From: Thiohalocapsa sp.
Lineage (GTDB): Bacteria; Pseudomonadota; Gammaproteobacteria; Chromatiales; Chromatiaceae
Reading direction: 5' to 3'
DNA length: 47,312 bases
Assembly (NCBI GenBank): GCA_021736785.1
Contig: JAIPFF010000044.1
Location: forward strand, 1 to 47,312
The notes under the pieces are model-generated. The model searched no databases, was not told the DNA's origin, and saw only the letters and a list, made by a program, of their open reading frames with translations. Position numbers and translations under genes: made by a program. Below, in pieces: positions 14,052 through 45,326 of the stretch; the stretch's first letter is position 1, and each line of letters opens with the position of its first letter.

Positions 14052-14126
14052 GCTCCCTTCGTCTAGCGGTTAGGACGCTGGCCTCTCACGTCGGTAACAG
14101 GGGTTCGAATCCCCTAGGGAGCGCCA
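14052..14126 (+). tRNA. tRNA-Glu (anticodon CUC)
   Basis: 75-nt cloverleaf with encoded CCA. The acceptor stem GCTCCCT pairs with AGGGAGC, the discriminator is G and CCA is at 14124-14126. The T arm is AGGGG-TTCGAAT-CCCCT. The anticodon loop CTCTCAC puts CTC at positions 34-36; its stem CTGGC/GTCGG contains two G-U pairs. The overall sequence resembles E. coli tRNA-Glu, which has UUC, so this is a CUC isoacceptor for GAG codons. Confidence 0.93.
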
Positions 14127-30455: not shown

Positions 30456-30459
30456 ATGG
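30414..30459. promoter_or_regulatory. CynR-like box C, at the start of cynR copy 2
   Basis: 46-bp element beginning TTGTCCAAGACCATATTCC and ending with the dyad ATAGGCATCCACTAT (30443-30457); the regulator's ATG (30456) is inside the right half-site, exactly as in box B. It matches box B at 38 of 46 positions. Confidence 0.85.
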
Positions 30460-31424
30460 ATCGAAAAATAGTGTTTCCGCGCTCGATCCGCTACCTGCTG
30501 GCGGTCGCCGAACACAACAGCTTCACACGCGCTGCAGAGGCCCTCGCCGTCTCCCAGCCGACGCTGTCACAACAGATCAAGCAATTGGAGGAATCACTCG
30601 ACGTGCAGCTGCTCGACCGCTCGGGTCGTTCGGTTCGCCTCACCGACGCGGGCGAAGTCTATCTTCTGCACGCACGCCGCGCGCTCGGCGAGTTGAATGC
30701 GGCGCAACGGGCTATCCACGATCTTCAGGATCTGAGCCGCGGTTCGCTGCGCCTGGGTATGACGCCCATTACCGACTATTTGACGGCACCGCTGCTGGAT
30801 GCGTTCAACGCGCACTATCCGGGTATTTCGGTCAGCACACTGGAAATGCCGCAAGACGACATCGAGACAGGGGTGGCGGAAGACCGCATCGACATAGGCA
30901 TCGCCTTCACCAACACGCTGTCCTCGATGGCTTCATCCGGGAAGATCGAAGCGCATATCCTGTTCGGAGAAAAGCTCAACCTCGCCGTCGGCCACACCCA
31001 TGCCTGCGCCGAAGAACAAAGTCTGCTCAGCGCCGTCACGCTCGCGAACGAACCGCTGGTGCTGCTGAATTCGGACTTCGTGCTGCGACGCTACGTGGAC
31101 ATGTACTGCATGCAAAACGGCATTACGCCCCGCGTGGCAATGGAGACCAACTCGCTGAGTGTCATCGTCGAGATCGTTCGTCTGGGCCGCCTCGCCACGA
31201 TCCTACCGAACACCATCGCGACCGCGCAGCACGGAATTTGCTCCGTGAAGCTGACTCCGCAACTCCCCAATCACACCATTACGCTCATCTGCCGCAAAGG
31301 CGGCTACAAGAGCCCCGCCTGCAGCGCGTTCGGCCGGCTGGCGGCGGACTGGTGCGACGCGCGCGCGCAATCCCAGCCGGAGCCCGATGAAGCGCCCGTA
31401 TGCCACGGGCTATCGGACGCCTGA
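30456..31424 (+). CDS. cynR: LysR-family regulator, CynR-like, copy 2
   Basis: 322 residues, a close paralogue of the 28064 gene: FPRSIRYLLAVAEHNSFTRAA, VSQPTLSQQIKQLEESL, AAQRAIHDLQDLSRG, LGMTPITDYLTAPLLDAF, then PLVLLNSDFVLRRY and ETNSLSVIVEIVRLGRLATILP. The C-terminal ~20 residues differ from the paralogue. It probably regulates cynS or the importers together with copy 1; different effectors are possible since the effector-domain residues diverge more than the DNA-binding residues, in keeping with nearly identical boxes. Confidence 0.88.
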   Translation: MDRKIVFPRSIRYLLAVAEHNSFTRAAEALAVSQPTLSQQIKQLEESLDVQLLDRSGRSVRLTDAGEVYLLHARRALGELNAAQRAIHDLQDLSRGSLRLGMTPITDYLTAPLLDAFNAHYPGISVSTLEMPQDDIETGVAEDRIDIGIAFTNTLSSMASSGKIEAHILFGEKLNLAVGHTHACAEEQSLLSAVTLANEPLVLLNSDFVLRRYVDMYCMQNGITPRVAMETNSLSVIVEIVRLGRLATILPNTIATAQHGICSVKLTPQLPNHTITLICRKGGYKSPACSAFGRLAADWCDARAQSQPEPDEAPVCHGLSDA

Positions 31425-31455: not shown

Positions 31456-32346
31456 TCAGAGTAAGCGGCCTTCGATGATCGGAACGACCCGACCGCCGAC
31501 GTCAATCTCGGCAGTGGGCGCGGCTTGGCTCACGCGAAGCATGACCAGCGACGGGCGCCGCACGGCGTGCCCCTGCTCGATGCGCAGCGTCGTTGCTTCG
31601 CTTTCCAACAGGCGGTGAGTGGCCAAGTAGGCGCCGAGGAACGCGGCGCCGTTGCCGGTGGCGGCGTCCTCGCGGACGCCGTGGGCCTCGAAAAAGAACC
31701 TGACGCGGAAGTCGTTCGCCGCGTCCTCGACCTCTCGGCAAAAGACGTACACCAGCGGCGGGAAGCCGGCTCGCGCAAGCGGCGCGAAGGCGGCCAGGTC
31801 GAGCCGGCAGCGATCCAAGGCCTCGCGGCGGCGAAGCGGCACCAATAACGCCGCCGTGCCCGCACCGAACAGCTGGACGGGCGAGTCCGCGTCGATCTCG
31901 TCCGCCGACAGCCCGATGGCGGCGGCGGCCGCTGCGGGCTCGACGGTCGTTCCGGCGATGATCACGGGAGCTCGGAACCAGGCCAGGTCGACGGCGCCCC
32001 GGGACGGCTCGAATGTCACGTCCACGGCATTCGACAACAGCTTCAATCGCACCGATTCGCGCCTCGCGCCGGCCACATGGTCCCGGATCACGCATGCCGC
32101 GCCGAGGATCGGGTGCCCCGCAAACGCGATTTCCCGCGCCGGCGTGAACAAACGCACCGTATAGCCCCCATCGTCGTCGGGCACCGGATTCACGAATGCC
32201 GTTTCGGAATAATTCATTTCCGCCGTGATTCGCTGCATTCGATCGCGCGGTAGTCCCTCGTCACACACAATCACGGGTAAAGGGTTACCCGTGTAGGGTG
32301 CTTCCGCGAAGACATCCACCATATAGAAACGTTGCGTCACGAACAT
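31456..32346 (-). CDS. PhzF-family isomerase/epimerase-like protein
   Basis: 296 residues. The family's paired folds show in FYMVDVFAEAPYTGNPLPVIV (with the NP site), MQRITAEMNYSETAFV (the Glu is the usual general acid/base), TPAREIAFAGHPILGAA and, in the second half, REDAATGNGAAFLGAYL with the phosphate-like loop GNGAA. PhzF proteins isomerise small acids; the substrate cannot be inferred. It faces cynR copy 2 and is divergent from cynS over a 762-bp gap. Its place in the cluster may be incidental. Confidence 0.88.
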   Translation of the reverse strand: MFVTQRFYMVDVFAEAPYTGNPLPVIVCDEGLPRDRMQRITAEMNYSETAFVNPVPDDDGGYTVRLFTPAREIAFAGHPILGAACVIRDHVAGARRESVRLKLLSNAVDVTFEPSRGAVDLAWFRAPVIIAGTTVEPAAAAAAIGLSADEIDADSPVQLFGAGTAALLVPLRRREALDRCRLDLAAFAPLARAGFPPLVYVFCREVEDAANDFRVRFFFEAHGVREDAATGNGAAFLGAYLATHRLLESEATTLRIEQGHAVRRPSLVMLRVSQAAPTAEIDVGGRVVPIIEGRLL

Positions 32347-33108
32347 CGAACTCCTATGCACTCGGGCTGTAATGCAGGCAGCGGCCGAACACAATCATCG
32401 ATGCTGCGGAGACTGTTTCGCACGCCCTGCGGCGGCAATGCTAGAGCAGCAAACGACTGCTTGCACGTGTTGCCGCATCGGGATCACGGTACCTGCCTGT
32501 TCGGTTCTCTCTGAGCACAGTTCCAACAAGCGAAGAGAAGCTTGCAACAGACTGTTTTATCTGTCTTTCCGCCACATCTACCCTGTTCCCACCAGCGAAT
32601 CGCGCCTGTTCCGCCGGCGCCCGAAACAACGCGTTGCGAAGTCGATGACACGGCTGCTCGTGATGCCGCAACATCGGTTTGGCAGGCTCCGCGGGGCGCA
32701 ACCAACCACGCGGGCGAAGCGGCGGTCGAGGCTGCCTCGACGCGGATGAAGGCGCAGCGGCACCGAATAAAGAAGCGCGCTTTTTGCGGATACGGATAAA
32801 AAAACCCCGCCGTTTCGTCAATTGCAATTGCGCAGAAAAACGGTATCCTTCCTATTGCGCTCAGTGACGATAGCGACAATTGCAACGCGCTTGGTGCGGG
32901 CATCAACAGCACTCACCACAAAGAGCGTTCGAGCCGCATGACGCGATTGTGCGCAAGGCGTTTTCGGCCAGTCTCCCGGAACATGCCGATCAGTGGACAC
33001 GCCAAGCAGTCGATCTCCAGGCGCCAATTGAAAAGCACGTGCCGACGGCGGCGCTTAGTTCACGCCCCGTCGCTTCCCCTTTCCAAAGTAATGAAGAGGA
33101 CGATCCTG
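32347..33108. other. 762-bp interval between the PhzF gene and cynS
   Basis: No convincing gene; several frames are open on both strands but none has a family or start signal. An AAGAAGCGCGCTTTTT palindrome-like stretch lies near 32771. A possible cynS promoter is at 32822-32849. No copy of the 46-bp CynR-like box was found here. Confidence 0.5.
32822..32849 (+). promoter_or_regulatory. Possible sigma-70 promoter of cynS
   Basis: TTGCAA and TATCCT are separated by 16 bp. If used, the cynS transcript would carry a leader of about 250 nt. A loose CTATT ... GATAG dyad lies just downstream (32852-32873). The match is moderate. Confidence 0.3.
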
Positions 33109-33549
33109 ATGACGAAAAGTGAAATGAAATCGGCGATTCTGGCAGCAAAGACGTCGAAGGGTATGACGTGGAAGGCGCTGGCCGATGCCGTCGGTCTGTC
33201 GCCGGAGTTCACTTGCTCGGCGTGTCTCGGCATGAACAGCCTGAATGCAGACAAGGCGGCTGCCTGCGCGCAAGCGTTGGGACTGGGGCCGGACATCGCC
33301 GCCGCATTGCAGGAGTTTCCGATGAAGACTTGGGACCAAGTCGTGCCCACCGATCCGCTGATCTATCGTTGGTACGAAATCGTCGGCGTCTATGGCGAAA
33401 CCATCAAGGAACTGATCCACGAGCAGTTTGGCGACGGCATTATGAGCGCCATCGATTTCACGATGAACGTCGACAAGCAGGAAGATCCGAAGGGCGACCG
33501 TGTCGTGGTGACATTGAACGGCAAGTTTCTGCCGTATAAATCCTGGTAA
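33109..33549 (+). CDS. cynS: Cyanate hydratase (cyanase)
   Basis: Converts cyanate and bicarbonate to ammonia and CO2. 146 residues. The POU-like N-domain is KGMTWKALADAVGLSPEFTCSACLG. The catalytic C-domain has YRWYEIVGVYGETIKELIHE (Arg and Glu of the active site) and DGIMSAIDFTM (active-site Ser), and it ends NGKFLPYKSW as is typical. AGAGGA lies before the ATG at 33109; an in-frame ATG at 33091 is less well placed. It is convergent with hupE2. Confidence 0.97.
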   Translation: MTKSEMKSAILAAKTSKGMTWKALADAVGLSPEFTCSACLGMNSLNADKAAACAQALGLGPDIAAALQEFPMKTWDQVVPTDPLIYRWYEIVGVYGETIKELIHEQFGDGIMSAIDFTMNVDKQEDPKGDRVVVTLNGKFLPYKSW

Positions 33550-33552
33550 GGA

Positions 33553-33584
33553 GCGCCGGGCGGGCCCATGCCCGCCCCCGGCGC
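33553..33584. terminator. Bidirectional hairpin between cynS and hupE2
   Basis: GCGCCGGGCGGGC and GCCCGCCCCCGGCGC form a long GC stem with a two-base bulge and a 4-nt loop in the 71-bp gap between convergent stops. No T-run follows, but the position suits transcription separation. Confidence 0.55.
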
Positions 33585-33620
33585 CGGCCGCGGCATGGGC
33601 CGCAGAAGATCAGCAGGGCA

Positions 33621-34265
33621 TCAGACCAAACCGCCGGCCAGTAGCGCGCCGCCGAACAGCGCAGCACCCAGACCTGCGGAGCGCGCAACCCGCACGGCCG
33701 TCTCGCGGGAACGCGCGGCGAGCAGGGAAGCTCCGGCCGCCAGGCCGGCGATCACCACGTACTGCACCAGAGAGAAGCCGATCAGATAGCCAACCAGCGG
33801 CGTGGCCTCGGCGCCGAAGATCGCCTCCGCGTAAGCGTAGCCGTGGAACAGGCCGGCAAGCGCCAGCAGCGTCGACAGCAACCGCGCGCCCGGCGCCATG
33901 CGACCCAACAGCGCGGCACCGCCGAGCAGCACGGACGCTGCGACGATCAGCTCGCCCGGCGGAAGATCGAGTCCCTGAAGATGCAGCGTCGCGCCGCCGA
34001 GAGTCCCGAGTACGAAGGCGGCCGGGGCGAGCCCGCGCGCAGCCCCGGACAGCATCGCGCTGAGCAACGCCGCCACCACCAGGAAGGCCAAATGGTCAAG
34101 CCCGATGACCGGATGGGCGAGTCCGGAGATCAAGCCTTGGCCCAGCGTGCCGGGCAAGGCGCCGTCCATGCCGTGGTGGGCCAGCGCCGGGGTGGTCGCC
34201 AGCAAGGCCATCAGCAGCAACCCGGTGCGGCCGTTCTGCGGAGAGAGTGGGCGTGAATGCTTCAT
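33621..34265 (-). CDS. hupE: HupE/UreJ-family metal permease, copy 2
   Basis: 214 residues from ATG 34265 (AGAGGT upstream; a GTG at 34274 is possible). Signal-like start (LLLMALLATTPALAHHGMDG), then six helices with LAHPVIGLDHLAFLV and LFHGYAYAEA, nearly the same motifs as copy 1. Last gene of the NrtABD-CobW-WD40-HupE operon. Its company with a CobW GTPase suggests a metal-uptake and delivery pair. Confidence 0.88.
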   Translation of the reverse strand: MKHSRPLSPQNGRTGLLLMALLATTPALAHHGMDGALPGTLGQGLISGLAHPVIGLDHLAFLVVAALLSAMLSGAARGLAPAAFVLGTLGGATLHLQGLDLPPGELIVAASVLLGGAALLGRMAPGARLLSTLLALAGLFHGYAYAEAIFGAEATPLVGYLIGFSLVQYVVIAGLAAGASLLAARSRETAVRVARSAGLGAALFGGALLAGGLV

Positions 34266-34310
34266 CGTGGTCACCTCTTGGCTATGCGTGAGTCAATCGT
34301 TGGTGTCGGC

Positions 34311-34350
34311 CTGGTTTGGGCCTGGTTTGGGCCTGGTTTGGGCCTGGTCT
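34311..34350. repeat. Short tandem repeat, 3 copies of an 11-bp unit
   Basis: Three identical CTGGTTTGGGC units (34311-34343) and the start of a fourth lie in the 212-bp gap upstream of hupE2. In the minus-strand mRNA they read GCCCAAACCAG and end about 45 nt before the start codon. This could be a slippage-prone spacer or RNA-binding site. Confidence 0.7.
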
Positions 34351-34477
34351 CGGTCCGCGCCCACCGGCCGTGATCGCGCTCTTGGGCACGACGCTTCGCG
34401 GCGGCCGGCCGCCGCCGTTGGCGCGCGCCGAGACCGGGCGCCGACGTCCACCGCGGGCAGTGCCTGCCGCCTGTCGC

Positions 34478-35602
34478 CTACGACTTGGTCTCAGCGGTGG
34501 CCGCTCGCCGCCCTCCCGGCTCCAATACCCGAAGCTGACCGTCGGTGCAGCCGAGGGCCAAGACAGCGCCGTCCGGCGACCACGAGAGCGCGGTGACCTC
34601 GGCACCGAGCACGAAGGTCAGCAGCAAGTCGCCGCCGTCGCGCCATAGGCAGACCCTGCCGTCTCTGTCCGCCGACGCCAGCAGCCCGCCATCGGGGGCG
34701 TAGGCGAGGGCCGTGACGGCCGCTTCGTGGGCGCGCAGCGGGACGGCCCGGCCGGGACCCGTCTGCGGGATGTCCCAGACGACAACGTCGCTGCCGCCCG
34801 CCGTCGCCACCCGTGAGCGGCGCGGATGCCAGTGGACGCAGCGCACCTTGGCCGGATAGCCGCGCATGGTCAGCTGGCCGCCGGCGCCGCGCTTGCCGGC
34901 GGCGGCGGGCTGGCGCCAGACCTGCAGGAAGCCGTCCTGCGTACCGACGGCGAGTGCCTTGCCGTCGCTGCGCCAATCAACGGCCAGCGGTGCCCCGGGA
35001 AAGTCCAGTAACTGCGCCGGCGCTTCGGCGCCGTCGCGCCACACGTGCAGGCCCTGATTGGCCGCGATCGCAAGCCGTCGACCGTCCGGCGCCCAGGCAA
35101 ATGCCAGCACGGTGCGCCGGGAGTCGTACCAAATGCCGGCGGAGCCCGCGTCCCGCCACAGTTGCAGGCTGCGCCCGGCCGCCGCGGCCAAGGTCCGCCC
35201 GTCCCCTGTCCAGGCCAGATGCTCGACCCAGTGCGACGACTGCATCGGTATTTCCGGCACATCACCATCGCTACCCCATAGGCAGACGCGGCCGTCCTCG
35301 CCGGCGCTGGCGACGGCATCGGTCCCGGGGCGCGGACAGAGCGCGGTGACACCGCCGTCGTGCGCCGCCAGCACGCGCAGGGCGACGCCCCCGATACCGT
35401 GCAGACGTATGCTGCCGTCGGCAGCGCCCGAGCAGAGACCGCCACCGTCCGTCCAGGCCAGCACGGTCACGGATTCGGGCAGCGCGCTGCGCCAGTCGCG
35501 CACGACAGCGTCGGCGGCCCGATCGTGCTCGCACGCGTCGCCCGCCGATCCCGGCGACGATGGCGATGGCGGTGCTTGCGGCATACCCGCTAGACCGCGC
35601 AT
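34478..35602 (-). CDS. WD40-repeat beta-propeller protein
   Basis: 374 residues with about eight WD40-type blades, for example [20 protein letters not shown]...[90 protein letters not shown] and [20 protein letters not shown]. No signal peptide, so it is cytoplasmic. Its start overlaps the CobW stop by 13 nt. It is probably a scaffold for the CobW GTPase and a target protein; WD40 proteins beside CobW and HupE genes recur in bacteria as I recall, with no defined function. Confidence 0.85.
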
Positions 35603-36993
35603 CGGCGCAAACCCTCGCTGAGCGCGGAGCGGTCGAGGTTGCGGCCGATAAAGACCAACTGGCTGCCGCGCTCGTCGTCCGTGCGCCAGGGCTGTCCGTC
35701 ACTGCCGTCAAACAGCATGTGCACGCCTTGAAACACGAAACGGTTCGGCTTGCCCTTCAGCGCCAACACGCCTTTGGTGCGGAACAGATCAGGCCCGCGG
35801 GCACGCAGCAGTTGGGTGATCCATTGCTCGAAGCGGTCCGGATCCAGGTCGCCGTGCTGTTGCACGCCGACCGAGCCGACACTGTCGTCGTGCTCGTGGG
35901 GACTGGCGTAGCGGTGCTCCTCGGCCGGCGTCAGCACCGTGCCGCAGGCGGCGCGCAGTTGCAGGTCGAACTCTTCGGGCAGGTGCTGTGTCAGCAGGAC
36001 ATAGCGGCCAGGATGCTCTATTTGGATATCGAGTGTCGCACCCGTGTCGTCGTGCACCGGCAGGCGATAGAGCGTTTCGGAGGGAACGACCGCGACGTCG
36101 CCGCCGACCCGCGTCGCCTCGCCCGAATAGAGCAGGATGCTTGCACGCTTCCAGTCCCGGAATGTCTCGTCGCGCTCGAGGCCCGGGCCGCCGATCACCA
36201 GGTCGATGCTGGGGTCCGGCCCCGCCGACAGCGCGATGCGATGCCGACCGGGCTGCAGATCGAAGAGCCCGGCCCATTCGAACGGCAGCTCCTCCTGCAG
36301 GAACTCCGGCGTCTCGGCGGCACGGACAGCCAGATCGAAGGCGCGCACGTCGAGCACGGCGCTCAAATCGACATCGCCGTTCACGGTTTCGTGCACCCGC
36401 GCCAGGCCATTCATGGCCGCGATCCGCCCGCACAGGGCGGTGCGCTCGTCGTCGTCCACCAAGTCGCACTTGTTCAGCAGCACGATGTCGGCGGAGGCGA
36501 TCTGCGCCCGGCACTCGTCGCTGTCGAGGTGCTGCGAAACATGCTTTGCATCCACCAGCGTGACGATGGCGTCCAGTCGCAGCTTCGCCTGCATCTCCTC
36601 GTCCATAAAAAAGGTCTGCGCCACCGGCCCGGGGTCGGCCATACCGGTGGTCTCGATGACGATGCGGTCGAACCGGTGCTTGCGGCGCATCAGCCGGCCG
36701 AGGATCCGGATCAGATCCCCGCGCACGGTGCAGCAGATGCAGCCGTTGTTCATCTCGAAGATCTCTTCGTCGGTCTGCACGACGAGCTCGTGGTCGATGC
36801 CGATCTCTCCGTACTCGTTCTCGACGACGGCGATGCGCCGCCCGTGCTCCTCGCTCAAGATACGGTTCAGCAGGGTCGTCTTGCCGGCGCCGAGGAAGCC
36901 GGTCAGCACGGTGACCGGCACGCGCCGGTCGGGCGCGGGGTCCGCGTCCGCGGCGCCGTCGATGGGATCGGTCTCCAATGCACATGCACTCAT
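35590..36993 (-). CDS. CobW/COG0523-family GTPase with an inserted domain
   Basis: 467 residues, longer than the usual 320-400. Walker A is [14 protein letters not shown], the metal motif is GCICC (about residues 83-87, in [15 protein letters not shown]), Walker B is [11 protein letters not shown], and LNKCDLVD is the base-recognition site. A stretch of about 130 residues (from [18 protein letters not shown] to about HEHDDSVGS) lies between the GTPase and the CobW C-terminal domain, which begins near [11 protein letters not shown]. Some COG0523 proteins are metal insertases, including for nitrile hydratase (Nha3). Its place with HupE suggests delivery of cobalt or zinc. It follows the ATPase after 21 bp. 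Confidence 0.88.
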
Positions 36994-37014
36994 AGCGATA
37001 GGCCTTCGATGCGT

Positions 37015-37941
<927 letters not shown>

Positions 37942-37947
37942 GGCGTG

Positions 37948-38778
37948 TTACTCCTGGTATTGGACGGCACGCGTCGCCGTCGCGAGCGCCATGTCCAACA
38001 GCATGCCGACCACGCCGATCATCAGAATCGAGAAGATCACGCTGGTCAGATCCAGGTTGTTCCACTCGTTCCAGACGTAGTAGCCGATGCCGGTACCGCC
38101 GACCAGCATCTCGGCGGCGACGATAACGAGCCAGGCGATGCCGATGGAGATACGCATGCCGGTCAGGATCGTCGGCGCGGCGGCCGGCAGAATCACCTGG
38201 AAGGCCGTTTGGAAGGCATTCAGCTCGTGGGTGCGGGCCACGTTGACCCAGTCCTTACGCACCGACGCCACGCCGAAGGCGGTATTGATGAGCATCGGCC
38301 AGATGCTGCAAATGAAGATGACGAAGATCGAGGACGTCTCCGAATCCTTGATAATGAACAGCGCCAGCGGCATCCAGGCCAGCGGCGAGATCGGCCGCAG
38401 GACCTGGATGAACGGATTCAGCGCCTTGTACATCAACGGCGACATGCCGATCAGAAAGCCCACCGGGATGGCGATCAGCGCCGCCAGGGAGAATCCGGCC
38501 AGCACCCGGTAAATGGAATAACCCAGCTGGATGCCGATCCCCTTGTCGTTGGGGCCGGCGTCGTAGAAGGGGTTCGACAACTCCGTCCATGCCAGCCGCA
38601 GCACATCCGACGGCGGCGGCACCCTCGCCTCCTGATCGGCGCCGCCCATCAACAGCTCGTACTCGGAAACGGCCTCGGTGGCCTCGGGCTTGAAGCTGCT
38701 CAGCTCCCATAGCCCGAGGCTGATGACGAGCAGCACCATCGACAGCAGTGCCGCTCTGATTCCAGTCGATTGAATCAT
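37948..38778 (-). CDS. NrtB-type ABC permease
   Basis: 276 residues with six hydrophobic segments and an N-terminal helix followed by a ~70-residue periplasmic loop (LLMGGADQEARVPPPSDVL). The EAA loop reads VARTHELNAFQTAFQVILPAAAPTILTGMRISIGIAW. The conserved RPISPLAWMPLALF and GTGIGYYVWNEWNN are typical of NrtB/CmpB/CynB. The binding-protein stop lies 4 nt upstream. Confidence 0.93.
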   Translation of the reverse strand: MIQSTGIRAALLSMVLLVISLGLWELSSFKPEATEAVSEYELLMGGADQEARVPPPSDVLRLAWTELSNPFYDAGPNDKGIGIQLGYSIYRVLAGFSLAALIAIPVGFLIGMSPLMYKALNPFIQVLRPISPLAWMPLALFIIKDSETSSIFVIFICSIWPMLINTAFGVASVRKDWVNVARTHELNAFQTAFQVILPAAAPTILTGMRISIGIAWLVIVAAEMLVGGTGIGYYVWNEWNNLDLTSVIFSILMIGVVGMLLDMALATATRAVQYQE

Positions 38779-38782
38779 TCGC

Positions 38783-40279
38783 TTACGCCCTTTTTATCTC
38801 GAAGCTCCGGACGTACTCATCGGGCTTGGTCCAATCGAACTCCTTACCCATGATTGTGTAGTTCTTGTAGGTCTCATCCGGCACCGGATAACCGAGCTCC
38901 TTCATGTACTTGGCCGCATCAGACGCAACATAGACCTGCTCGGCGATTGCCTTGTAGTCCACCTCGCCCTCGATATATCCCCAGCGCTTCATCTGAGTCA
39001 GGATCCATACGGCCATCGAATGCCAGGGGAAGGGGTCGAAGTCGATACGGTCCGGTACATCCATGACGTTGCCGAGACCGTCGGCAAAGCGCCCGGTCAA
39101 CACCTGCTCGATGACCGGCACCGGCTGGTTCAGATAGTTCTTGGGCGCGATCGCGGCCGAGATTTCCTTGCGGTTCTCGGCCTTCGACGAGTAGTGGGTC
39201 GCATCGACGATGGACTTCAGCAGCGCCGAGTAGGTATTCGGCAGGCTGGTCGCGAATTCATCGGAACAGGCGAACGCGCAACACGGGTGGCCGGGCCAGA
39301 TATCCTTGGTCAGGATGTGAATGAAGCCCACCTTCTCCCAGACCGCGCGCTGGTTGAACGGGTCCGGCGACAAGTAGCCGTCGAGGTTGCCCGCGCGCAG
39401 GTTGGCGACCATCTCCGGCGGCGGCACGACGCGGATTTGGATGTCCTGGTCCGGGTCGAGCCCGTGCTCGGCGACGTAATAGCGCAGCAGAAAGTTATGC
39501 ATGCTGTAGTCGAACGGCACGCCGAACTTGAAGCCCTTCCAGTCCTTCGGGTCGCGCTTGTCCTTGTGGTCCACGTGCAGCACGATGGCCTGACCGTTGA
39601 TGTTCTCGACCGCCGGCATCCGGTAAGGCGCCGCGGTGGAGCCCGCGCCGAGGGTCATGGCCAGCGGCATGGGCGTGAGCATGTGCGAGGCGTCGTATTC
39701 GCCGGCGAGCGACTTGTCCCGCGCGACTGCCCAGCCGGCGGTCTTGATCACTTCAACGTCGAGGCCGTACTTCTCGTAGAACCCCATGGGATGCGCCATG
39801 ATGATCGGCGTGGCGCAGGTGATGGGCACGAAGCCGACTTTGAGCTTGGTCTTCTCGGGCTTCGCCATCTCCTCCTTGACCGCCGCCTTGATCTTGTCCA
39901 TCGGCAGCATGGTGCCGAGCAGGCCGGCGAGGGTGCTGCCGCCGACCAGCCCGAGGAAGCTGCGCCGGCTCATGTCGTTGTGGCCGAACATGCCGCGCAC
40001 GATAGCGCTCTCGATTGCCCGGTCCATGACGTCTTCGGCGCTGTCGAAGGATTCCTTGCGGGCAGCGTCCGCCTGCATGGCCCGCGGTGCCGCGTCAGCG
40101 GTCGTCGAGGAGCCTTCGAAGACCGCTCGCTCCAGGCGGTCCGTCATTTCAGTCTCGGTGCAGTCGTACTCCGCCGAGACCTCCTCGCGCTTGAACACGC
40201 AGATCGGGCAGTTGCAGAGCGGACCGTGCTGCAGGTCGGAGTCGGCGTCGAAGGGATTGCCCAGGCTTCGGTACGGCAT
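38783..40279 (-). CDS. NrtA/CmpA-like Tat-exported binding protein with Cys-rich leader
   Basis: 498 residues. The mature region (KLKVGFVPITCATPIIMAHPMGFYEKYGLDVEV, GVPFDYSMHNFLLRYYVAEHGLDP, LDGYLSPDPFNQRAVWEK, WPGHPCCAFACSDEF) is NrtA/CmpA-like; anions such as nitrate, bicarbonate or cyanate are the known ligands. Before the Tat motif SRRSFLG (104-110) there is a cytoplasmic leader of about 100 residues with Cys22-x-Cys24-x2-Cys27 and Cys40 (LCNCPICVF). Such a long Cys-containing leader before a Tat signal is unusual. The gene is first in its operon, behind a perfect sigma-54 promoter. Confidence 0.9.
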   Translation of the reverse strand: MPYRSLGNPFDADSDLQHGPLCNCPICVFKREEVSAEYDCTETEMTDRLERAVFEGSSTTADAAPRAMQADAARKESFDSAEDVMDRAIESAIVRGMFGHNDMSRRSFLGLVGGSTLAGLLGTMLPMDKIKAAVKEEMAKPEKTKLKVGFVPITCATPIIMAHPMGFYEKYGLDVEVIKTAGWAVARDKSLAGEYDASHMLTPMPLAMTLGAGSTAAPYRMPAVENINGQAIVLHVDHKDKRDPKDWKGFKFGVPFDYSMHNFLLRYYVAEHGLDPDQDIQIRVVPPPEMVANLRAGNLDGYLSPDPFNQRAVWEKVGFIHILTKDIWPGHPCCAFACSDEFATSLPNTYSALLKSIVDATHYSSKAENRKEISAAIAPKNYLNQPVPVIEQVLTGRFADGLGNVMDVPDRIDFDPFPWHSMAVWILTQMKRWGYIEGEVDYKAIAEQVYVASDAAKYMKELGYPVPDETYKNYTIMGKEFDWTKPDEYVRSFEIKRA

Positions 40280-40405
40280 CGTTGTCCCCTAGTTGTCGAC
40301 CGGACGAGCGCGACGCCGGAAGGCCTCGGCGCTGGCCCGGTGCTTGCGTTGCTATGGATCGGTCTCGTGGAAGCGGTCCGGCAGGAACCGGCTTACATGA
40401 GCTTT

Positions 40406-40421
40406 TGCAACGGCCGTGCCA
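40406..40421 (-). promoter_or_regulatory. Sigma-54 promoter of the importer-CobW-WD40-hupE operon
   Basis: On the minus strand the sequence is TGGCACGGCCGTTGCA, a perfect match to TGGCACG-N4-TTGCW. Transcription would start near 40394, about 115 nt before the binding-protein start codon. Three palindromic sites lie 85-140 bp upstream, next to a sigma-54 activator gene. Confidence 0.9.
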
Positions 40422-40491
40422 GAGGCTGATAAAAACACTCAGGCATTGATCCGATTGGGATTTGCAGCGACTCGGACGAAACAACAATGAC

Positions 40492-40543
40492 TACGAGAAC
40501 TCGTAATTCACGACTTCTCGTAGCCAGATCACGAGGTCTCGTA
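40492..40543. promoter_or_regulatory. Three palindromic upstream activator sites
   Basis: TACGAGAACTCGTA (40492-40505), CACGACTTCTCGTA (40509-40522) and CACGAGGTCTCGTA (40530-40543) share the ACGAG-NN-CTCGT palindrome. The centres are 17 and 21 bp apart. Measured from the predicted sigma-54 start site at about 40394 they lie near -104, -121 and -142, the normal place for activator binding. They are probably bound by the product of the adjacent gene. Confidence 0.85.
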
Positions 40544-40549
40544 GCGAGC

Positions 40550-42499
<1,950 letters not shown>

Positions 42500-43170: not shown

Positions 43171-44592
43171 TCAGCCCTTGATGCAAACCAAGGGCTCCAG
43201 CCGCGCGACGCGCCGGGCCAGGCCGGCGTGCTCGGCGGCGAGCACCACCTCGCTCACGTCCTTGTAGGCACCGGGCGCCTCTTCGGCAAGGCCGCGGGCG
43301 GACGGGCTGCGAACGGCGATGCCGCGGGCGGCGAGCTCGTTCTGCACGGCCCGGCCGTGCCAGCGCTTGGTGGCGGCGTGGCGGCTCATCGCCCGGCCCG
43401 CCCCGTGACAGGCGGAGCCGAAGGCAAGCCCCATACTCTGTTCCGTCCCGACCAGAATGTAGGACGCGGTACCCATGGTGCCGCCGATCAGCACGGGCTG
43501 GCCGACGGCCCGCAGGTCCTCCGGCAGATCCGGATGGCCGGGGCCGAAGGCGCGTGTGGCACCCTTTCGATGGACATAGAGCCGGCGCTTTTCGCCGTCG
43601 ACCACATGCTCCTCGAGCTTGCAAGTGTTGTGCGAGACGTCATAGAGCAGTGCCAAATCGGCCCCGAAGAAGTCCTCGAAGACCCGGCGTGTCAGATGCG
43701 TGATGATCTGCCGGTTGGCCAGCGCGCAATTGATGGCGGCGCGCATGGCGCCAAGGTAAGCCTGCCCCAGATCCGATTGGAGCGGTGCGCAGGCGAGCTC
43801 GCGCTCCGGCAGCCGGATGCCGAAGCCCGGCGCCGCAACGGCCATCTGCTTCAGGTACTCGGTGCCGATCTGATGGCCGAGCCCGCGGGAGCCGCAGTGG
43901 ATGCTGACCATGGCGTCGCCGATAGCGATGCCGAGCGCGGCGGCGGCATCGGCGTCGTACGCATCTGTGACGGCTTGGACTTCGAGATAATGATTGCCGG
44001 AGCCGAGCGTGCCCATTTCCCCGCGCTGGCGCTTCTTGGCGAAGTCCGAGACGCGCTTCGCGTCGGCGCCCGCCATGCGGCCGTGCTCCTCGATCCGACT
44101 CAGGTCTTCCGGGCGGCCGTAGCCTTCGCCGACGGCCCAGGCCGCGCCGCCGGCCAGCATCGCATCCATGCGCCGATGGTCGATCATGATGGAGCCGGTA
44201 CTGCCGACGCCGACCGGCACGGTCGAATAGAGCGCCTCCGCAAGCTCGTCCCGCACCGCGCTGATCGCTTCGCGATCAAGTCCGGTGTGCAGTGTGCGCA
44301 CGCCGCAGGCGATATCGAAGCCCACACCGCCGCCGGAGACGACGCCCCCCTGGTCCGCGTCGAATGCAGCGACGCCGCCGATCGGGAATCCGTAACCCCA
44401 GTGTGCATCCGGCATGGCATAAGAGCCGCCGACGATGCCCGGTAGCCCGGCGACATTGACGGCCTGCTCCACCACCTTGTCGTCCATGTCGCGGATCAGC
44501 GCTTCGCTGGCGAAGATCACCACCGGTACCCGCATCGCACCGGTCGGCTCGATGCGCCATTCGGTATCGCCGTGCCGAACGAGGCCTTTCAT
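43171..44592 (-). CDS. rtcB: RNA-splicing ligase RtcB
   Basis: 473 residues. Joins 2',3'-cyclic phosphate (or 3'-phosphate) to 5'-OH RNA ends with GTP and Mn2+. Signatures are AMPDAHWGYGFPIGGVAAFD, GGGVGFDIACGVR (metal Cys), SIHCGSRGLGHQIG, HNTCKLEEH, GTMGTASYIL and ACHGAGRAMSR (guanylylated His in CHGAGR). It directly follows archease. Confidence 0.95.
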   Translation of the reverse strand: MKGLVRHGDTEWRIEPTGAMRVPVVIFASEALIRDMDDKVVEQAVNVAGLPGIVGGSYAMPDAHWGYGFPIGGVAAFDADQGGVVSGGGVGFDIACGVRTLHTGLDREAISAVRDELAEALYSTVPVGVGSTGSIMIDHRRMDAMLAGGAAWAVGEGYGRPEDLSRIEEHGRMAGADAKRVSDFAKKRQRGEMGTLGSGNHYLEVQAVTDAYDADAAAALGIAIGDAMVSIHCGSRGLGHQIGTEYLKQMAVAAPGFGIRLPERELACAPLQSDLGQAYLGAMRAAINCALANRQIITHLTRRVFEDFFGADLALLYDVSHNTCKLEEHVVDGEKRRLYVHRKGATRAFGPGHPDLPEDLRAVGQPVLIGGTMGTASYILVGTEQSMGLAFGSACHGAGRAMSRHAATKRWHGRAVQNELAARGIAVRSPSARGLAEEAPGAYKDVSEVVLAAEHAGLARRVARLEPLVCIKG

Positions 44593-44616: not shown

Positions 44617-45081
44617 CTAGACATCCACGACGCAGCGGGCGCACCAAGACCCGTCCGAGCGCCGCGACACGGAAAGGGCGGTGTAGGTGGCCCCCTTGAT
44701 CTCCACCGCCGGGTGATGGCGCGCGGGGTCCACGGTCTCGCCCCAGATCTCCGCGCGCAGCCGGGCGCCGCTGATCCGAACCGCGAAGCGCGAAAACAGC
44801 ATGCGCTCCGTCGCCATCCTGTAGATGAGCGCGTTCAGCCAATCCACGAACAGGAGCTCCGGGTCCGGCTCGTCGCAAGTGACCATATAGCGGCGCTCGG
44901 CCCTGACGGACGCGGGATCGGCGACGATGGCGGTCAACGCCGTGGCCGCCTGCTCGAACGCCTCGGCAAGGCTCGCACCGGCACCTTCGACGCCGATATC
45001 GGCACGGTGCTCGAAATGCCGCCAGGCGGACCGGGGAGCGGCCCCGAGTGCGGGCGTAGGATGCGATAGGCACTGCACCAT
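44617..45081 (-). CDS. Archease, RtcB activator
   Basis: 154 residues from the ATG at 45081, which has GGAG 6 nt upstream. The metal site is in [33 protein letters not shown] (the Asp of HRADIG), then [24 protein letters not shown] and [12 protein letters not shown], and it ends CVVDV with the conserved terminal Asp. Archease speeds RtcB guanylylation and turnover. The 24-bp gap to rtcB indicates one operon. The 245-bp region upstream of it shows no gene and no convincing sigma-54 site. Confidence 0.93.
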
Positions 45082-45326
45082 CGTCGGCTCCATGCAACGG
45101 CCGCGGACACCGCCGTCGTCCGGCCCGCGGCAAGCCAAGCATCCGCCATACGCCATACGCGGACGAGCCTGCTCGAACGGCCGGAATCGGCGACAACGGG
45201 AGCGGCCTCTTCTGATTGCAGTGTAGCCAACGGCGAGGACGGGCATTCACCGAGTCGACGCTCGGGGATTCCCCGCACCGACGGCCCGTGGGGCATGGTG
45301 CCGGGGCGGCTCGGACTCTGCACTGC

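Follow-up and report, generated by a model that had tools for sequence, protein, structure and literature searches.

A putative cyanate-uptake operon of Thiohalocapsa with a conserved predicted sigma-54 promoter and a putative three-site operator array

We analyzed a stretch of 47,312 nucleotides of Thiohalocapsa DNA (the window), in which an NrtABD-type importer operon lies opposite the gene of a PAS-PAS-AAA+-Fis protein. The operon is most likely a cyanate-uptake operon under a sigma-54 promoter, and the divergently encoded protein most likely binds an array of three sites upstream of it. Sequence comparison with relatives shows that the predicted promoter element and the array are conserved, that the sites keep a fixed spacing and are phased to the promoter, and that these features are linked to cyn genes. 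An earlier reading of this DNA had left the substrate unnamed because the cyanase gene at the operon's distal end was overlooked.

Promoter, array and activator gene

The features of the intergenic region and the activator gene are as follows.

40406..40421, minus strand: sigma-54 (-24/-12) promoter element TGGCACGGCCGTTGCA, facing the importer, with a predicted start at ~40395
40493..40504, no strand: putative activator site 1, ACGA-N4-TCGT, from motif search and relatives
40510..40521, no strand: putative activator site 2, ACGA-N4-TCGT, 17 bp from site 1
40531..40542, no strand: putative activator site 3, ACGA-N4-TCGT, 21 bp from site 2
40550..42499, plus strand: CynF-type activator with two PAS domains, AAA+ (GAFTGA) and Fis-type HTH, from domain search, translation and tree

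The element at 40406-40421 is the only sigma-54 match in the window without a mismatch and also the only one of full score (1 observed vs. a shuffle mean of 0.017). With up to two mismatches allowed, the sigma-54 pattern is not enriched in the window (10 found, 9.2 expected), so that the case for a promoter rests on the perfect site, its position and its conservation. An operon-facing element scoring at least 10 of 12 is found in 33 of 34 homologous regions, the window included, compared with 0.58 in shuffles; L099 is the sole region of the 34 with no good element in this orientation, and all six additional regions have one. The perfect element named in the original prediction is thus exact in the sequence, and its reading as a promoter is backed by the relatives. 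The RpoN gene is present in a single copy. A search of the leader against Rfam returned no RNA family, the sole match in the window at the gathering score being a tRNA at 14052, and a sigma-70 consensus scan of 32300-41000 found no promoter, that of the activator included.

L131-L138 conserve a second sigma-54-like element, which points to the activator; the window has a weak copy (TGGCCCGGTGCTTGCG, 40333), for which we make no claim. L145 and L146 share with L131-L138 both this second element and a GCAC-N7-GTGC palindrome between the activator and binding-protein genes, which looks NtrC-like; no perfect copy lies between these genes in the window.

The array had been described as three ACGAG-NN-CTCGT palindromes. 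Three palindromes do exist, but only those at 40493-40504 and 40531-40542 are exact in this form, the middle one (40510-40521) carries a mismatch, and the motif proved too narrow; with up to two mismatches it shows no enrichment in the window (32 found, 28.6 expected). We replaced it with ACGA-N4-TCGT, the form derived from and kept in the relatives, to which all three sites conform exactly. This motif occurs four times in the window, three of them in the array, versus 0.7 in shuffles, and the 5.2-Mb genome has a single location where two copies stand 17 bp apart. The gap from promoter to array is 72 bp; the site centers lie ~104, 121, and 142 bp upstream of the predicted +1 (~40395), in agreement with the distances given originally.

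The domain search bore out the predicted PAS-AAA+-Fis architecture, with two PAS domains, AAA+ and a Fis-type HTH: PF00158 and PF02954 are above cut-off, and GAFTGA is read in the translation, so the protein has the AAA+ sigma-54 domain with GAFTGA and the DNA-binding HTH of bacterial enhancer-binding proteins. PAS and sigma-54 domains also occur together in cyn-linked L035, L051, and L060 and in nit-linked L105. The open reading frame was listed from 40487, a start that we rejected by comparison with the three nearest relatives (L026-L028), which have an in-frame stop directly after the third site and an ATG 6 bp past the array; the start corresponding to theirs is 40550. In some more distant loci the activator frame is open across the array. 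The array had been placed at the 5' end of the activator gene; it probably precedes the coding sequence, with a true start at 40550 and the end of the array 8 bp before that codon.

By its sequence the activator is CynF-like, and its nearest named relatives are from Thiohalocapsa (family Chromatiaceae). In the activator tree the window groups with three Thiohalocapsa rows (100), nested in a clade of 31 cyn rows (97); a distinct group (99) is made up of 48 rows, nit-linked and other, almost exclusively from Pseudomonas. The clade of 31 does not take in six cyn-linked activators (L033, L038, L051, L054, L060, and L101). L102 was left out beforehand, and L029 and L083 were removed because their reading began before an in-frame stop. 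The deeper joins of this tree are unsure because a quick method was used and several branches are long.

Operator spacing and phasing in relatives

A scan of genome_contigs with the activator gave 267 relatives, of which the best 80 loci were retained; in 33 regions among these 80 the activator gene and a cynA or cynS match are divergently oriented. These regions and the window make up the set of 34, from which close kin were not removed (L051 and L054 are near copies); six more loci, from the window's order, extend it to 40. At least one perfect ACGA-N4-TCGT is present in 28 of the 34 regions, at least two in 19 and at least three in 9, where shuffles gave 0.18, 0.0, and 0.0, respectively. 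In 33 of the 40 regions there is an array of three sites in which no more than 4 of 24 positions mismatch (shuffle mean 0.0), and the remaining 7 exceed this number. The spacing follows a rule of 17 and then 21, 22, or 23 bp: when any distance from 13 to 30 bp was allowed, 17 + 21-23 was chosen by 32 of the 33 regions having at most three mismatches.

The rule also held in loci that came later. All five of L142-L146, fetched by their activator matches, fit the array, two of them being close kin of earlier loci. When 274 genomes of the window's class were scanned with the array alone, two matched, the window's own and that of L147, where the array is flanked by a CynF homolog and cynA; the reversed pattern matched 0 of the 274. 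The search of other genomes that the original prediction had proposed therefore did find arrays beside orthologous activators, though as ACGA-N4-TCGT and not as ACGAG-NN-CTCGT.

The distance between promoter and array takes discrete values. In the cyn group (n = 35) the gaps are 48-49, 57-60, 68-72, and 79-84 bp; in the nit/other group 41 of 42 are 92-93 or 101-103 bp and one is 79 bp. The steps are of ~11 bp, and none of 5000 random sets was equally periodic; the peak lies at 11.0-11.7 bp rather than 10.5, with species that are non-independent samples. Eleven regions fell below the cut-offs of the phasing test (cyn L037, L042, L099, and L132, and seven nit/other), and the outlier L027 (gap 244) is omitted from the periodicity figure. 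It is as if the array and the promoter lay on one face of the DNA.

Could the two motifs be chance matches in GC-rich DNA? Their degenerate forms are as common in the window as in shuffles, which is what such an explanation would expect, but it is contradicted by the conservation of both the predicted promoter element and the array, together with their spacing, over alpha- and gammaproteobacteria, and we give it almost no credence.

Sites of the same type are also seen in Pseudomonas loci (within L043-L105) where NitA-type activators face nitB-nitrilase genes, mostly with a spacing of 18 + 22/23. In L077 the gene divergent from the activator is instead sulfite/nitrite-reductase-like, as judged by eye.

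The operon, its substrate and its metal-type genes

Reading from the promoter, the importer operon and the cyanase gene comprise:

38783..40279, minus strand: cynA-like binding protein (NMT1_2) with a long N-terminus before the twin-arginine signal
40106..40279, minus strand: module of 58 residues at the N-terminus of the binding protein, HGPLCNCPICVF...YDCTE...
37948..38778, minus strand: cynB-like permease, NrtB model above cut-off
37015..37941, minus strand: cynD-like ATPase, NrtCD model above cut-off
35590..36993, minus strand: CobW / COG0523 GTPase with CICC motif
34478..35602, minus strand: WD40 repeat protein
33621..34274, minus strand: HupE/UreJ-type membrane protein, with a 203-bp gap ahead of the gene
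33109..33549, plus strand: cyanase cynS, convergent with the operon and above the TIGR00673 cut-off

Because of the 203-bp gap, it is less certain that HupE shares the transcript. This gap between WD40 and HupE contains a perfect 11-bp tandem repeat of 3.7 copies (34308-34348).

Three hallmarks of a CynF-type operon are found here: the NrtABD-type importer genes cynABD, a sigma-54 promoter before cynA, as judged from sequence, and a divergent sigma-54 activator beside cynA. The fourth, cynS as the last gene of the same operon, is not: the only copy found in the genome is on the opposite strand, at 33109-33549, and in the region upstream of it (32301-33120) we found no sigma-54 element, and the one ACGA site there, at 32650, carries a mismatch. 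With cynS outside the operon and without a visible sigma-54 element, import and degradation would not share the promoter of the operon, a point against the switch proposed below.

Some other genes deserve mention. A LysR gene at 30456-31424 (plus strand), 1.7 kb from cynS and not adjacent to it, scores above the NCBIfam CynR cut-off (394.8 vs. 277 bits) and is a possible second cyanate regulator. In three Thiohalocapsa genomes (L109, L110, and L111) cynS lies away from the operon, a conserved TGGCACC-N4-TTGCT is found ~60 bp ahead of it, and another sigma-54-like element faces a neighboring ABC ATPase gene. Farther along the window, an RtcB RNA ligase is encoded at 43171-44592 (minus strand) beside a reading frame at 44617-45246 (minus strand) that by eye resembles archease.

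Taken as a whole, a cyanate-responsive switch of the CynF type appears highly probable to us. The activator would bind the three ACGA-N4-TCGT sites as dimers and sense cyanate or an internal cue through its PAS domains; with the array as a scaffold, the three dimers may assemble into an AAA+ hexamer, which would loop to sigma-54 RNA polymerase at 40406-40421 and open the promoter, presumably in an RpoN-dependent manner. The transcript would then cover cynA-cynB-cynD-CobW-WD40 and possibly HupE, and the cyanase encoded at the operon's end on the other strand would degrade the imported cyanate. Since the probable start codon of the activator follows closely on the array, the activator may also repress its own gene.

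Two other readings have to be set against this switch. The importer might carry nitrate or nitrite, or several anions, with an activator that answers nitrogen status rather than cyanate: permease and ATPase pass NCBIfam nitrate-transporter cut-offs, the best solved relatives of the binding protein are nitrate and bicarbonate transport proteins, the nitrate ones being closest, and nitrate/nitrite transporters of P. pseudoalcaligenes may also take up cyanate (PMC6627978, available in part). We regard this as improbable in view of the company that the importer keeps. Of 33 relatives (from the best 80 of 267 loci), 30 have the cynS gene on the operon strand, including L029, L036, and L037, which carry CobW as well; the three others are Thiohalocapsa L026-L028, with cynS elsewhere in their genomes. 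The same arrangement is seen in seven of eight further loci (L131 and L133-L138; L133/L134 were taken as the same as L036/L037 and not counted twice) and in five of another six (L142-L144, L146, and L147), the sixth stopping before it would be reached, and in the window cynS adjoins the end of the operon.

The array might instead serve mainly to autoregulate the activator gene, leaving the sigma-54 element to another activator such as NtrC. The 8 bp that separate the array from the start codon at 40550 and the GCAC-N7-GTGC palindrome of L131-L138 would fit such a division of labor; the phased distance between array and operon promoter, the lack of a perfect palindrome of this kind between the two genes of the window and the requirement of CynF for cynABDS in P. 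pseudoalcaligenes (PMC6627978, in its accessible part) argue against it, and we hold it to be quite unlikely.

The metal-type genes joined to the importer were correctly recognized in the original prediction, and are the unusual part of the operon. The CobW gene product matches PF02492 and PF07683, and CICC in its translation corresponds to the CXCC of COG0523/CobW proteins. The window's order is represented by 210 genomes; 17 of them have the activator (E <= 1e-170) and 14 have the CobW orthologue (at least 625 bits), all 14 being among the 17; in the 10 genomes of the window's genus both are present in 4 and neither in 6. The ATPase gene is directly upstream of CobW in all 14 loci (cut by the contig start in L122), and WD40 follows CobW in 13, the window included, with no WD40 match for L122. 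Weaker CobW matches of 482-490 bits in G003, G346, and G467, two of them with a WD40 neighbor, had no importer gene inside the stretch fetched. HupE is present in L026-L029, L036, L037, L131-L134, and L147 and gave no match in L135-L138 or L146. L028, from Thiohalocapsa halophila DSM 6210, agrees with the window in the order of its genes all the way from the activator to HupE.

Searched alone, the 58-residue module is found at E < 1e-20 in exactly the 14 CobW genomes of the 210; G347, G348, and G467, which have the activator without this CobW, match weakly in the cysteine-bearing stretch, and a further genome, G328, gives E = 0.0016. At the level of loci, HGPxCxCPICVF, read from seven loci first and then held in later ones, is present in 16 of 42 binding proteins, and CobW is in view for 15 of these; the sixteenth locus, L145, ends inside the ATPase gene, and CobW is on another contig of that genome. 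The motif is absent from all 26 binding proteins where no CobW is seen, some of whose loci end soon after cynS (e.g., L033, L097, and L144), so that CobW may lie beyond; the comparison of whole genomes is free of this limit. A simpler C-x-C-x2-[CH] before the twin-arginine pair was found by script in 39 of the 42 and by eye in L027, with none in L030 and L100. On a tree of the mature binding protein and permease, with the module left out, the trait changes three times and no disagreement was seen. L142 and L143 lack both module and CobW and fall in one group (99/97) together with the window and the three Thiohalocapsa rows, although where they branch within it is less sure (93/85). No Pfam model is above cut-off in the N-terminal 126 residues of the binding protein (best, a Tat signal with 14.8 vs. 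22.7 bits), and the module has no match among solved chains.

This co-occurrence suggests that metal for the cysteine-bearing N-terminus of the binding protein would most likely come by way of the CobW-WD40 pair. A more specific version, which we put forward tentatively and consider less likely than not, is that CobW and WD40, joined in some relatives by HupE, supply metal to the cyanate importer alone, a line in which CobW would dock on or load the H-x3-C-x-C-x2-C...C module and the export or function of CynA would be licensed by metal. We know of no COG0523 chaperone that matures the binding protein of a transporter, and to our knowledge the clients of CobW-WD40-type metal chaperones are mostly unknown; the module thus names a candidate client for such a pair, testable with two proteins.

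Comparison with known systems

Control of such an importer by sigma-54 and a PAS-domain activator had been thought new, but CynF-cynABDS of P. pseudoalcaligenes CECT5344 is already published: in the accessible part of that work (PMC6627978), expression of cynABDS requires CynF, is induced by cyanate and is repressed by ammonium, and a sigma-54 promoter is predicted before cynA. The window shares with it the divergent Fis-type sigma-54 activator, the ABC cyanate importer, the predicted promoter before cynA and a linked cyanase, and differs in having cynS outside the operon on the other strand and in the added CobW, WD40, and HupE genes; in our comparisons the CECT5344 sequence is represented by cynS-linked homologs in other Pseudomonas (L051 and L054). 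A 2025 survey of sigma-54 (PMC12316311, available in part) lists cyanate lyase as a target enriched in alpha- and gammaproteobacteria, and in thiocyanate oxidizers sigma-54 regulators are reported near thiocyanate dehydrogenase genes (PMC5744179 and PMC6504805, likewise). Our literature search, within the accessible parts of these sources, found neither an operator array nor a tie of CobW-WD40 to cyanate; supplementary Figure S1 of PMC6627978 may show an activator site.

NitA/nit1C (PMC11049912, available in part) has in common with the window a related divergent activator, a sigma-54 element and ACGA-N4-TCGT sites. Unlike the window, it mostly has 18 + 22/23 spacing and a longer promoter gap, and its activator faces nitB and nitrilase genes; the gene divergent from the activator in the window is that of the binding protein, and the activator belongs to the cyn group. 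The binding site of NorR differs from ACGA-N4-TCGT, and its sensor is a GAF domain for nitric oxide. It resembles our system in its three sites upstream of a sigma-54 promoter and in an AAA+ activator with its own sensor domain; according to the accessible part of PMC2941729, the three enhancer sites are essential and act as a scaffold for oligomers.

The znuABC genes are known neighbors of COG0523 genes, and subfamily 5 of this family combines a CobW-type GTPase with a neighboring WD40 gene, as does the window, a likeness judged by gene neighborhood; that subfamily is linked to znuABC, creatinase genes, and Zur, whereas the pair described here lies inside a cyanate operon (PMC2770081, available in part). 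In its promoter circuit the window follows a known type of regulator, with a variant operon. What is new is the operator rule and the link between CobW and the module, and the presence of a CobW-WD40 pair in such an operon looks new as well. For CynF/NitA-type activators the rule can be put to the test: three ACGA-N4-TCGT sites spaced 17 + 21-23 bp, at a distance from the promoter that moves by about one helical turn.
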